From an uncultured Flavobacteriaceae bacterium (GTDB taxonomy: Bacteria > Bacteroidota > Bacteroidia > Flavobacteriales > Flavobacteriaceae), in assembly GCA_947500445.1 (NCBI GenBank), contig CANMSB010000004.1, forward strand, positions 124,001 through 188,000: 64,000 nt of DNA, read 5' to 3'. The notes below the pieces were generated by a model. The model saw only the letters and a list, made by a program, of their open reading frames with translations, was not told the origin of the DNA and made no database searches. Shown here piece after piece: positions 44,201 through 46,919 of the stretch (positions are counted from its first letter, which is position 1; each line of letters begins with the position of its first letter). The position numbers and the translations under genes were made by a program.

Positions 44201-44632
44201 GACATCTGCCATGGTTACTCCGGTATACCATCGATCATCTCCGGTAACCCCGGCGGAAACCGAAATATTCTCGAACTGAAGATTGCCTTTGTTCAGATAT
44301 AGGGCATTGGGCACCATGTTTCCTGTAAAATAAAGGTCGATCAGCCCGTCGTTGTTAATATCGCCCGCTGCGATACCGCCGCCCATGTACAGGTATCCAT
44401 AGGTGAAATAATTTAAGGAATCGGTTTCGGTAAGGGTATTGGTAAAGGTAATGTCAGAAGCGCTTGAAGCAATTTCCTGAAATACTTTTTTTATAGAGCG
44501 TTCCTTATCCGGGTCCGCAGCTTTTTTGGTACAGGAGCCGAGAATTCCTATAATTACCATAACAAGCAGTTTCAATGCTCTTGGATTAAAAAAAGTACAT
44601 CGATTAAAAAAAGAGAACATATGATACGGCAT
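41234..44632 (-). CDS. Large FG-GAP / ASPIC-UnbV (CRTAC1-family) lipoprotein
   Basis: This 1132-residue exported protein has a leader ending MVIIGILGSC, a lipobox near residue 34. The ATG four codons in (MFSFFNR) may be the true start. It has two FG-GAP propellers. The first (about 60-500) carries loops such as DINNDGLID, DVNNDGFLD, DYDKDGDLD and DMNNDGWPD. An ASPIC/UnbV segment near 540-610 reads SSVAPRLHFGVG and VAIQWPNGD. The second propeller (about 670-1110) carries DLNGDGLDD, DMEGDGDND, DFDKDGDLD and DFDGDGDMD. In Bacteroidota such proteins usually sit in susC-susD loci and are thought to bind polymers at the surface. Here it lies downstream of the fasciclin gene on the same strand but behind a terminator. 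Confidence 0.88.
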   Translation of the reverse strand: MPYHMFSFFNRCTFFNPRALKLLVMVIIGILGSCTKKAADPDKERSIKKVFQEIASSASDITFTNTLTETDSLNYFTYGYLYMGGGIAAGDINNDGLIDLYFTGNMVPNALYLNKGNLQFENISVSAGVTGDDRWYTGVTMADVNNDGFLDIYCSVGGRSGIKTNQLFLNNGDKTFSEQAEQFGLAEDGNSVQTTFFDYDKDGDLDAYVANYPPTPFDAPNQYYSYKMQSPKTIETDKLFRNDNGRFTDATEASGVTSFGLSLSATVGDMNNDGWPDIYVSNDFSTPDLFYINNKNGTFSEVVKEVTKQTSFFGMGTDIADVNNDGWLDIFQVDMTAKDNRRSKSNMASMNPKLFWNTVGSGFHYQYMQNSFQLNNGILNDTLPDFSNIARLTGTSSTDWSWAPLFGDFDNDGHKDLFITNGIRREINNRDYFIGYKKAGKPKDRLLERSLAIPSEKIDNFMFRNTGNLDFEEVNDAWGISHKGFSNGSVYADLDNDGDLEIVTNNIDEPAKLYENLNPDANNFLSLDFKGSVNDVFGSNVKVYLYLEDGHFQFQEMTFTRGFQSSVAPRLHFGVGKIAQIDSVAIQWPNGDTEIKTAVKTNQLLTVSQEDAKRQNLVQNSPSPLLSKPIFKTESDTAFLKPYRHLENYYNDFNKEILLPYQTSMLGPLTSVADLNGDGLDDFVVGGSHNNTMGIFLQTATGFERTQIATIEKERAYEDMDIVIFDMEGDGDNDLYVVSGGNEFTPESEQLQDRIYVNDGNGHFQKAEGSLPEITASGLVAKPHDFDKDGDLDLFVGGRLVPGGYPEPANSYILENRSTPKKILFKDVTATVAPELLRIGMVSDALWNDYDDDGWDDLILVGEWMPITVLKNTKGTFKNTSENLGIADTHGWWYHINSADFDGDGDMDYIVGNLGLNYKYQATEAETFDVYYRDFDNNSSKDIVLSYFNEGKQYPLRGRECSSQQMPGIKKKFESYQSFSEATLEEVYTEDYLNKSLNYKIKSFASVYLENDNGTFRLFPLPRAAQISNINSSIIQDFNGDGKLDVMIAGNLHTAEVETPRNDAGNGLLLLQDENGSFLPISGRDSGLFTTGDVRDVAKITFQEKEYLIVAKNNDYLQLVSIRAPKSPSAAP

Positions 44633-45076
44633 TTCTTAAAATAAATTCCAATTTAACAACATAGAAAGGCTACTGATATTCCAAGATAGCAGGACCACCC
44701 GCTTAGAAGTGGTAAAGTATGAATTTTCGGCTTCAACCAAAAGTTAAAACAACCTGATTGTTATTGAACCCAGATTATATCTGAGAAAATCCATTGCGGT
44801 TCGAAACTACTGTAAAACCGAAGGCTTCACTATCTTTTGGGCTTGACGGCAGTCTCAATGCTTTGCGGTGATGCGCAAACCCGAAGAACATCTTAATTTT
44901 ATAGCATTTTCGACCCTCATGACGAAGTTCCATTGCTTAAAACGGGTTAAGCAATTCCCTTTTTGTCGCTTTTTTATGGGTGGTTAGGTGATGATAGTAT
45001 GGTCGTATGCATCACTTTTTAAGTGTAAGCCTATATAGCAGGCGGCCTACGATGTTAAAACTGTTTTTAGAATATA
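44633..45076. other. Gene-free stretch with two operator-like inverted repeats
   Basis: No plausible reading frame is seen. TTTGCG and CGCAAA (44862-44867 and 44874-44879) flank GTGATG, making an 18-base perfect dyad. ATTGCTTAA (44932-44940) and TTAAGCAAT (44947-44955) flank AACGGG and are followed by T-rich sequence on the plus strand, like a weak terminator with no plus-strand gene ahead of it. This stretch contains the promoter of the FG-GAP/UnbV gene; no clear TAnnTTTG box was found. Confidence 0.5.
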
Positions 45077-45237
45077 ATACCGTTTCTGGTATTAAATTAC
45101 CCATTAAAAATTGTTCTTTTCCGTGTTTACTTCAAAATAAAATCTAACCATAGCTACTGCTATGCCTGGATTTTCTTTTTCGTCTACCCAAAAAATCCCT
45201 GGTTTTTATTTTCGTAATTTAACACCATAAATGGTAT
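45077..45237. repeat. 161-base imperfect palindrome (foldback element)
   Basis: The outer 24 bases (starting ATACCGTTTCTGG) match the reverse complement of the last 24 (ending AATGGTAT) at 21 positions. The centre CATAGC-TACT-GCTATG at 45149-45164 is perfectly paired, and the 16 bases on each side of the centre match at 13. The two arms have the same length within one base (78 and 79), so the whole unit folds as one long hairpin. It abuts the terminator at 45239. It has no coding capacity. It could be a MITE-like or REP-like mobile repeat, or a structured RNA. Copies elsewhere in the genome cannot be checked here. Confidence 0.7.
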
Positions 45238-45238
45238 A

Positions 45239-45268
45239 AAAAAGGCCGGTACTAGTACCGGCCTTTTT
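45239..45268. terminator. Strong bidirectional terminator of the susC-susD-fasciclin operon
   Basis: AAAAAGGCCGGTAC (45239-45252) pairs with GTACCGGCCTTTTT (45255-45268) in a 14-bp stem. It lies about 44 bases past the fasciclin stop on the minus strand, and the A-run gives the U-tract in that direction. Confidence 0.85.
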
Positions 45269-45311
45269 GGGTTGACCGGTTTTGAATACGGTCAACGGTA
45301 TGGTCAAAAGG

Positions 45312-46919
45312 TTATTCCAATGAGTCGATAAAGGCCAGTGCCACGGCGGGCAATAACACTTTATCGATAGTATGGGCCACCCCGTTTCTTGCTGTCACGT
45401 CCGCGGTCAATATTTCCGCATTGATGTCGTCGGTAGCGTCACCGATAACAAAGGCATTGCCCCTTGCAATGATTTCCAAGGAAGCCGCTTCCAGAGCCGT
45501 ATCTACCGATCCGGGCGCTAAGTCAGCAGCGGTAACGGTGCCCACAACCACATGATACCGAAGGATATCGGCCAACAAAGCGATTTCGGCATCCGTTTGG
45601 AAGTCACCGATACCATTGTAATTCGGTCCTAGTGCATCGAACAGGGCGGTAAACGCCGCATTTGTCGGTGCAAAAACGGTTGCGGTATTGAAATAGGTAA
45701 AACCATTTACGACCGTAGTATCATTGGTAACATCAATGAACAAGGTGTCAAGCTGCGTTGCCGCAAGGGCTTCACCAAGTATGGAAAGATCAGCAACGTT
45801 GCCGACCGTGGTCGCTAGGTCGTCCGAGGCCAAAAGGTCAAGGAACTCCTGAATAGCTGCCGGTTTCAAAACTTTATCAATAATATTGGCTTCCCCATTG
45901 GTCGTACTGATAGGCTCGACCCCAACATTGGCCGTTTCACCAAAACTATCCGTAATGGTAAACGCTCCGGGAGCACCTGCTACATCCAGTGTAGCTCCTG
46001 TTGCAGTTTCGACCGTACCAGCGGCAAGTTCTTGAAGCACATCCATCTCATCATCTCCCATTCCCATGGTAGCCGGAGGAAGTACGTGATAGGACAATAT
46101 ATCGGCCAATAACTGTAATTCTACGCTGTTGTCAAAGGATTCCAGACCGGTATAATCATCACCCAAATCTTCCAACAATTGTGCAAAAGCATCGTTGGTA
46201 GGGGCGAGTACGTTCAACGGTCCAGCACCGGAAACAACGTCCACGAGCCCGGCCTGGGCCAAAGCACTGTTTAAAGTGGAAAGCGCCTCGGTATCACCTA
46301 CCAATTCTGGTAGATTAGGTCTGATATCGAGACTGGCAGCATCGATTAAGGCCTGTGGGATCAGTACTTTGTCAACAAAGTGAATTACGCCATTGGAGGC
46401 ATTTTGATCTTGGGCGGTAACGTTCGCTGCAGTGGAGGTGGACGAAAGTTCCGTTTTATCCTGTACCTGCACGCCATCGGCAAGGGATATGGTAATATTC
46501 TCTCCCTGTACCGTAGTAAACGAAGCGCCATCGCTCAAACTGGAAGCTCGGTTCGTTCCCGGCACCACATGGTAGGTCAGGATCGCCGATAGCAACGCAT
46601 TGTCAACATTTGCCAAAAGTTCAGCAGCATCGGCAAAACCAAGTTGTTTTCCCAAATTGTCGAAAGCGGTGTTGTTCGGGGCGAAAACCGTAAACGGTCC
46701 GTCTCCACTAAGGGTCTGCACCAAATTACCGTCAGCCTGCGATAATGCCGCGACCAGGGAGTTTAAGGAAGTGCTCCTTTGTGCGACCTCTACGATGTTA
46801 CGGGTACTATTGTCCGAAATCGTACCATCGTTGGTATCGTCGTCTTCACAGCTAACTAAAAAAGCCGAAAGCGTTAATAGTGATAATAACCAGGTGGTTA
46901 TCTTTTTATTATAAATCAT
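45312..46919 (-). CDS. Fasciclin (FAS1) repeat lipoprotein, three domains
   Basis: This 535-residue lipoprotein has the leader MIYNKKITTWLLSLLTLSAFLVSC with Cys24 as lipid site. Three FAS1 domains lie at about 42-192, 211-355 and 371-530. Each has the FAS1 H1 motif TVFAPNNTAFDNL, VLAPTNDAFAQL or VFAPTNAAFTAL, the YH motif (ILTYHVVPG, ILSYHVLPP, ILRYHVVVG), and an ending like IDKVLLP. FAS1 proteins mediate adhesion and ligand binding at cell surfaces. It is the third gene of the susC-susD operon, 29 bases after susD, so it may be a surface accessory of that transporter. Confidence 0.92.
   Translation of the reverse strand: MIYNKKITTWLLSLLTLSAFLVSCEDDDTNDGTISDNSTRNIVEVAQRSTSLNSLVAALSQADGNLVQTLSGDGPFTVFAPNNTAFDNLGKQLGFADAAELLANVDNALLSAILTYHVVPGTNRASSLSDGASFTTVQGENITISLADGVQVQDKTELSSTSTAANVTAQDQNASNGVIHFVDKVLIPQALIDAASLDIRPNLPELVGDTEALSTLNSALAQAGLVDVVSGAGPLNVLAPTNDAFAQLLEDLGDDYTGLESFDNSVELQLLADILSYHVLPPATMGMGDDEMDVLQELAAGTVETATGATLDVAGAPGAFTITDSFGETANVGVEPISTTNGEANIIDKVLKPAAIQEFLDLLASDDLATTVGNVADLSILGEALAATQLDTLFIDVTNDTTVVNGFTYFNTATVFAPTNAAFTALFDALGPNYNGIGDFQTDAEIALLADILRYHVVVGTVTAADLAPGSVDTALEAASLEIIARGNAFVIGDATDDINAEILTADVTARNGVAHTIDKVLLPAVALAFIDSLE

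Follow-up and report, generated by a model that had tools for sequence, protein, structure and literature searches.

The common view of bacterial MITEs is that they are decayed insertion sequences with hairpins as by-products. ERIC elements, which duplicate a 2-bp target at TA, are not known to have a transposase. ERIC (or IRU) sequences are described as small, mostly intergenic repeats of many genera, which duplicate their target and whose transcripts are long stem-loops (PMC2229807, PMC10969869), with TA at the termini and a duplication (PMC2229807). Correia/NEMIS and RUP elements are in the same way described as MITEs of about 100-200 bp with transcripts that form long stem-loops, and cutting by RNase III has been proposed for NEMIS (PMC2229807). 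REP sequences are units of 20-40 bp, tagged by GTAG or CGTC and linked to tyrosine transposases (PMC3733652). MITEs exist in Porphyromonas gingivalis (PMC4596501, PMC5771137), and MITECca01 of Cardinium (Bacteroidota), about 240 bp long, derives from a parental IS982 of the genome in which it resides (PMC9769881). In the available portions of the literature on flavobacteria and Bacteroidetes, subscription journals and preprints apart, no repeat family of the kind described below has been recognised.

The present element is a hairpin of 159-161 bp from Bacteroidota, the phylum that also harbours the MITE MITECca01. It is, as judged by its features, closest in style to ERIC, which is 127 bp long and belongs to enterobacteria and their relatives. 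Its duplication is 3 bp and mostly TNA, in contrast to the insertion at TA by which ERIC is defined, and it displays a strand-specific covariation of which, for ERIC, there is no mention in the parts of PMC2229807 and PMC10969869 used here. Correia/NEMIS and RUP differ from it in both ends and hosts; the ends of RUP are common to IS630-Spn1, whereas no partner was found for the hairpin element. With REP it has in common that it is palindromic and occurs in many copies, and it differs from REP by its 159 bp, by its 3-bp duplication, by having GTAG within the stem, and in that none of 30 Y1 loci examined is convincingly enclosed by such elements.

Results

The element in its window

The element was found in the window, which is the whole stretch of 64,000 nucleotides analysed, from an uncultured Flavobacteriaceae bacterium. 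A first-pass annotation had described 45077-45237 as a foldback unit of 161 bases. The long imperfect palindrome is real, as judged from sequence as well as folding energy: the stretch 45040-45330, in which the separate terminator next to the element is included, folds with -81.2 kcal/mol, to be compared with -57.3 ± 4.4 kcal/mol for 200 shuffled sequences (z = -5.4). The outer arms, 45077-45100 and 45214-45237, have 21 complementary positions out of 24 (88%), the centre CATAGC-TACT-GCTATG at 45149-45164 is perfect, and no ORF of at least 80 aa overlaps the element, all in agreement with the original description. The limits, on the other hand, have to be moved inwards by one base on each side. 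The element proper is 159 bp, 45078-45236, with the form TACC...GGTA, and the first and last of the 161 bases belong to a target-site duplication, which the sequence and the 3-bp duplication rule place as TAA at 45075-45077 (left copy) and TAA at 45237-45239 (right copy).

The left terminal inverted repeat, TACCGTTTCTGG... with the common family form TACCATTTC, is at 45078-45101 on the plus strand, and the right one is at 45213-45236 on the minus strand. The conserved hairpin tip, CATAGC-NNNN-GCTATG on the minus strand (45149-45164), is part of helix 4 and corresponds to nearly invariant alignment columns. Two conserved unpaired positions are a T at 45138, with a C at 45175 as partner (alignment pair 61/98), and a C at 45148, with a C at 45165 as partner (alignment pair 71/88). 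The minus strand is the one that folds best, and the covariance model R2, in whose training set the window copy is included, gives this copy 122.4 bits on the minus and 57.9 bits on the plus strand. Its length of 159 bp, the lack of an overlapping ORF of at least 80 aa, terminal inverted repeats alike at 21 of 24 positions, and many dispersed intergenic copies with a target duplication are features that the element shares with bacterial MITEs.

Outside the element, as the first-pass annotation had it, there is a separate intrinsic terminator with perfect 15-bp arms (45239-45268, minus strand), and upstream of this terminator a gene with an ORF of 535 aa (45312-46919, minus strand), for which the name fasciclin stems from that annotation. 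Since the right TAA meets the terminator at its T-tract, it appears that the insertion was made into this tail of the fasciclin-operon terminator. It was the T-tract of the perfect inverted repeat that supplied the TNA target here. The folding strand in the window is the sense strand of the operon, just behind its terminator, an orientation that fits with read-through transcription from the operon into the element.

When 44600-45800 of the window was compared with Rfam, there were 11 matches up to an E value of 1, none of which reached the gathering score. The best of them, STnc430, had 34 bits compared to a gathering score of 47 and extended over 45190-45275, i.e., the end of the element and the terminator. 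Seven further loci gave a single Rfam match, below gathering.

Copies, ends and target duplications

That the unit might be dispersed in the genome with target duplications, as a mobile repeat would be, had been suggested from the window alone, and this is what the genome displays. BLAST in the host genome, with figures from the best 40 of 126 candidates scored, gave 56 rows and 40 separate places at E ≤ 1e-32, some of which are partial copies. The copies form two groups, one with about 85-93% and the other with about 78-81% identity to the window copy. Element ends, searched by pattern in the same genome, number 116, compared to 2 for a control with reversed pattern.

From 55 rows placed by script, 11 were dropped as chance matches or as truncated or nested copies, and the remaining 44 placed copies consist of 36 from the host genome and 8 from two other genomes. 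Exact 3-bp flanks are found in 29 of the 44, as TAA in 20 cases, TTA in 8 and GTA in one (28 TNA), while shuffled flanks agree in 16.8 cases on average and, over 20,000 shuffles, in at most 27. Among the named loci, where the ends were set by the covariance model without regard to the flanks, these are identical in 63 of 93 cases and always TNA, compared to a shuffled mean of 30.0 and maximum of 47. In the genome G149 the flanks are identical at 31 of 51 loci, as a plain count. Insertion is also seen directly in a nested case (L016), where one copy lies within another and has TAA on both sides; a further copy of the interrupted element (L050) has, at that site, TAG once. There are also tandem pairs (L268, L255), with 3 bp between the copies. 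None of 109 copies is within an ORF of at least 400 nt as defined by a simple ORF caller, i.e., the copies are intergenic. The element has spread by DNA copies that enter intergenic sites, mostly TNA, and duplicate 3 bp.

The unpaired ends of the host genome, surveyed in 10 and 30 stretches from about the first 100 of the 116 ends, belong to copies that are truncated, collapsed or short variants. The collapsed ones, about 39-46 bp long (L284 at 2435, L286, L289, L297, L298), have kept both ends and are without the central hairpin, as expected from deletion across the hairpin during replication.

The element occurs in many flavobacteria. BLAST found no match in nine congeneric genomes, three of them less than 90% complete, and matches, some of them weak, in 6 of 59 genomes searched besides that of the host. 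With covariance models, used with strict filters by which weak matches are lost, relatives were found in 23 of 393 genomes of the order, corresponding to 20 of 106 genera (R1), and in 11 of 392 genomes of a phylum sample, two of which belong to another order of the class (R2); the host genome is included in both counts. The core pattern occurs in at least 99 stretches of the GTDB contigs, and among the matches listed all 80 records are, by their titles, flavobacteria or unnamed Bacteroidia. They represent at least 20 named flavobacterial genera, including Aquimarina, Tamlana, Algibacter, Polaribacter, Tenacibaculum, Winogradskyella, Flavobacterium and Maribacter, a lower bound since the pattern selects conserved cores. 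There was no match to the element in plasmids and phages, and no exact match to its core in viral contigs.

Conservation of the hairpin

Elements were retained if they measured 157-163 bp and their placement score was not low, which left 152. These gave 86 representatives less than 90% identical, and 85 after removal of one doubtful match (L114). Covariation was tested for all column pairs, independently of the 62-pair structure discussed below, by a G-test with average-product correction, and the tree-aware null consisted of 60 alignments in which the substitutions of each column were redistributed over the tree. Six pairs have E ≤ 0.05 in this test, namely 59/100, 52/106, 58/101, 9/151, 11/149 and 46/112. 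These six and the next two listed are all on the hairpin diagonal, with i + j from 158 to 160, and four of the significant ones (59/100, 58/101, 52/106 and 46/112) are well interior to the terminal repeats. When read on the core strand, just three of the six have at least 80% standard pairs.

The 62-pair structure was read from the same 85 sequences, by which it is favoured over its slid versions, and has 88.6% of its 5250 cells paired and a covariation score of 0.421, compared to 0.157 for shuffled and 0.071 to 0.115 for slid versions. Both sides have changed in 49 of the 62 pairs, and the number of such cells is 787 compared to 281 after shuffling. What does not pair is conserved as well. 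Of the 85 relatives, 77 have the C.C at 71/88 and 64 the T.C at 61/98, and near 54-56/103-104 there is a conserved non-paired loop, TTC/TC. On the folding strand these are all purine mismatches, G.G, A.G and GA/GAA, respectively, of a type frequent in RNA internal loops. In helix 4, which contains the tip, 90.7% of the cells are paired and the tip columns are nearly invariant. The second pair of the tip is not paired on the minus strand in 67 of 85 sequences and is there mostly A.C; in 64 of 85 it is G-T when read on the core strand, which corresponds to A-C on the folding one. Paired changes in the arms preserve the ability of one strand of the element to form a hairpin of about 160 nt, which has fixed mismatches and a conserved CATAGC/GCTATG tip.

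Palindromes with a similar tip of CRTAGC/GCTATGC type and other arms occur in an Aquimarina (L192, about 4580), a Flavobacteriaceae (L187, about 4090) and the host genome (L277, about 303), and the tip may be a module common to several repeats.

The two strands are not equivalent in folding. As RNA, the minus strand is the more stable in all 85 representatives, on average by 15.4 kcal/mol, and it is also the more stable in all 85, by 7.1, with DNA parameters. It has 157 A-C mismatches where shuffling within pairs gives 266, and 423 G-U pairs where shuffling gives 471; G-U is in excess in 38 pairs and A-C in 13. The first-pass observation that differing positions keep G-U pairing is in this way borne out over the 85 relatives (423 G-U compared to 157 A-C on the minus strand), and is hardly visible in the window copy itself, with 3 compared to 2. 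The G-U/A-C ratio of 2.69 is to be read against a ratio of 1.77 already present after shuffling, which means that the excess is in part a matter of composition, and two of 12 slid controls are similarly skewed (+1 with 2.83 and +4 with 2.40). The innermost helix leans in the opposite direction, with 80 G-T and 48 A-C on the core strand, because one pair of the tip is G-T on that strand.

Length is confined to a narrow interval. It is 158-162 bp in 94 of the 113 best-strand R2 matches at the named loci, five partial or end-cut matches left out, and in 46 of 53 elements of the other genomes. R2, whose training elements measured 157-163 bp and in many cases came from these very loci, leans towards that length. 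In G149, 56 of the 67 ends have at most two mismatches and define 54 loci (two ends share one locus, and 1286879 was left out), and 51 of the 54 have a second end recognisable by a loose pattern. Here, the lengths are 160 (14 copies), about 208-215 (8 copies) and about 252-263 (25 copies), and the extra blocks, of about 50 bases each, are by eye located at the internal loop 35-39 and beside the mismatch 61/98. In single predicted folds a clean side hairpin is seen for L409 (211 nt) and for L265 and L267 (about 182 nt), and the 261-nt forms L386 and L419 rearrange. The extra blocks are apparent side arms on the hairpin, and structured RNAs typically grow by such arms.

Mobilising enzymes and neighbouring genes

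A search for four transposase families in 4 to 10 element-bearing genomes gave no mobilising enzyme for the hairpin element. In 4 genomes, all 21 matches to PF01609 were examined as loci and PF13340 had no match; in 10 genomes, 30 loci each were examined for PF13586 and for the Y1 family PF01797, fewer than the matches in both cases. The first scans were made by eye; in a stricter one, all 81 loci were screened for genes enclosed by convergent TACCA.TT-like ends whose TNA flanks are equal. Two of the 81, L150 and L325, have enclosing end-like motifs, each pair with 10 of 20 end bases alike, and were judged to be chance. Nor was there an end pair around an insertion sequence among the listed ends of G000 and G048. 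One end pair of suitable size in G048, seen by eye among about 100 of 138 ends listed, turned out to be a gene, presumably mazG, between two remnants.

The 138 ends of G048 are like TACC[AG]TTTANGGNGTTAATTTAC, and those that were read enclose unrelated interiors (e.g. L024, L031, L115). With elements of about 115-150 bp, this is a further large MITE expansion with ends common to the family of the window. Near-identical ends around other interiors suggest that one enzyme type may serve several element families. A second MITE, of about 210 bp and with ends GAACTCATTTAGACTT, is inserted into two copies of the hairpin element in the host genome (L043, 785-994, and L052, 1045-1254), and its CGTAGC-CCT-GCTATG tip resembles the one in the hairpin element. 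Since IS5-like loci of G101 (L164, L166) carry nearly the same ends, the partner of the second MITE is probably IS5-like. TNA duplications are made by IS1031-type IS5 elements and by Harbinger transposons, which is a lead only.

The neighbouring genes at the 54 loci of G149 are convergent in 24 cases, in the same direction in 29 and divergent in one. Between genes of the same direction the folding strand is sense at 41 of 53 named loci, many of which come from few Aquimarina genomes, at 10 of 20 loci of the host genome and at 12 of 29 of G149. The bias is strong in the named loci and absent in two single genomes, and is therefore not used as evidence.

Discussion

The safest statement is that the element represents a new family of MITE/ERIC-like repeats of Bacteroidota, with a fold that is selected on one strand. 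Mobile repeat and structured RNA had originally been put forward as alternatives, and parts of both are supported at once. Copies and duplications speak for a mobile repeat, and the covarying, strand-specific pairing speaks for a conserved folded single strand, which may be RNA or DNA. We regard it as fairly probable that the element is a non-autonomous, MITE-like insertion element with a conserved strand-specific hairpin, the folded strand being mainly RNA. RNA is favoured because of the purine mismatches, the tolerance to G-U, the lack of a replication-strand bias and the apparent side arms.

In the mechanism that we propose, a transposase encoded elsewhere, and not necessarily in the same genome today, would recognise the TACCA.TT ends and cut with a stagger of 3 nt. 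The folded strand would be mainly RNA, in that the transcript of a neighbouring gene would run through the copy, so that the hairpin forms in the mRNA. There, as has been reported for NEMIS and ERIC, it would alter how the mRNA is processed or how stable it is, an effect that would keep the insertions tolerable enough to persist.

Consider, as the first alternative, an ordinary MITE with long terminal repeats, mobilised in trans by the transposase of an insertion sequence, where palindrome and covariation result only from the need of both ends to fit one transposase and the interior is kept by descent. Such an element would have TACCA.TT-like ends and 3-bp duplications throughout, as found. 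The elements of G048, with the same ends and other interiors, and the second MITE of the host genome, with ends closely like those of IS5-like loci in another genome, point in the same direction. Matching of ends does not account for the four of six tree-aware pairs that are well inside, at 46-59/100-112, and recognition of double-stranded ends would not lead one to expect a preferred folding strand in 85 of 85 representatives. The narrow length and the conserved mismatches are likewise against it, as is the lack of an insertion sequence with these ends among the loci examined, and we consider this alternative somewhat unlikely.

One may also imagine a SINE-like or RNA-assisted transposon, whose mobility would need a folded, strand-specific RNA. 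The hairpin, of about 160 nt and with side arms as modules, would be recognised by the mobilising machinery, and the 3-bp TNA cut would fall to an enzyme that has so far had no connection to RNAs of this kind. This we find unlikely.

In another alternative, the relevant folded form would be single-stranded DNA, as for HUH/Y1 transposases or the attC sites of integrons. The folding strand is the more stable in 85 of 85 also with DNA parameters, and attC sites form a whole-length hairpin with conserved unpaired bases, of which the present element is reminiscent. The correlated 3-bp duplication points instead to a staggered double-strand cut. A bias between leading and lagging strand is absent in G149, where 56 ends with at most two mismatches divide as 25 to 31 (p = 0.50) with origin and terminus placed by eye from the GC skew of 20 sampled stretches. 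PF01797, moreover, has no match in the element-bearing genomes G371 and G037, and at the 30 Y1 loci examined the findings amount to an element-like end pair on one side only at two of them (L306, L330) and the enclosing pair of L325 with its 10 of 20 bases alike. Such a DNA form must be seen as quite unlikely.

Pairing might also be kept by mutation rather than by selection, when template switching copies one arm onto the other. Correction of imperfect palindromes by template switching is known, and the collapsed remnants of about 39-46 bp show that the copies are unstable. It should, however, erase mismatches, and two of these persist in most of the 85 relatives, C.C at 71/88 in 77 and T.C at 61/98 in 64; nor does it by itself predict a strand preference, which makes this explanation highly doubtful. 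Finally, when the locus was first described as MITE or REP-like, the mobile repeat was rightly seen, while a REP-like repeat spread by a RAYT is extremely improbable, in spite of the palindromic form and the GTAG in the tip of many relatives, given the 159 bp, the 3-bp duplication, a GTAG that is located in the stem and is no end tag, and no convincing enclosure by elements at any of the 30 Y1 loci examined in 10 genomes.

The length, the mismatches and the base pairs of this element have been kept, with one strand preferred, over deep divergence in at least 20 named flavobacterial genera, and from this follows that the fold itself looks selected. It suggests that a folded RNA or single strand matters to how the element lives or moves. 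For the annotation of flavobacterial genomes the family is a repeat to recognise, and it offers a system for testing if the movement or survival of small repeats involves folded RNA or single-stranded DNA.
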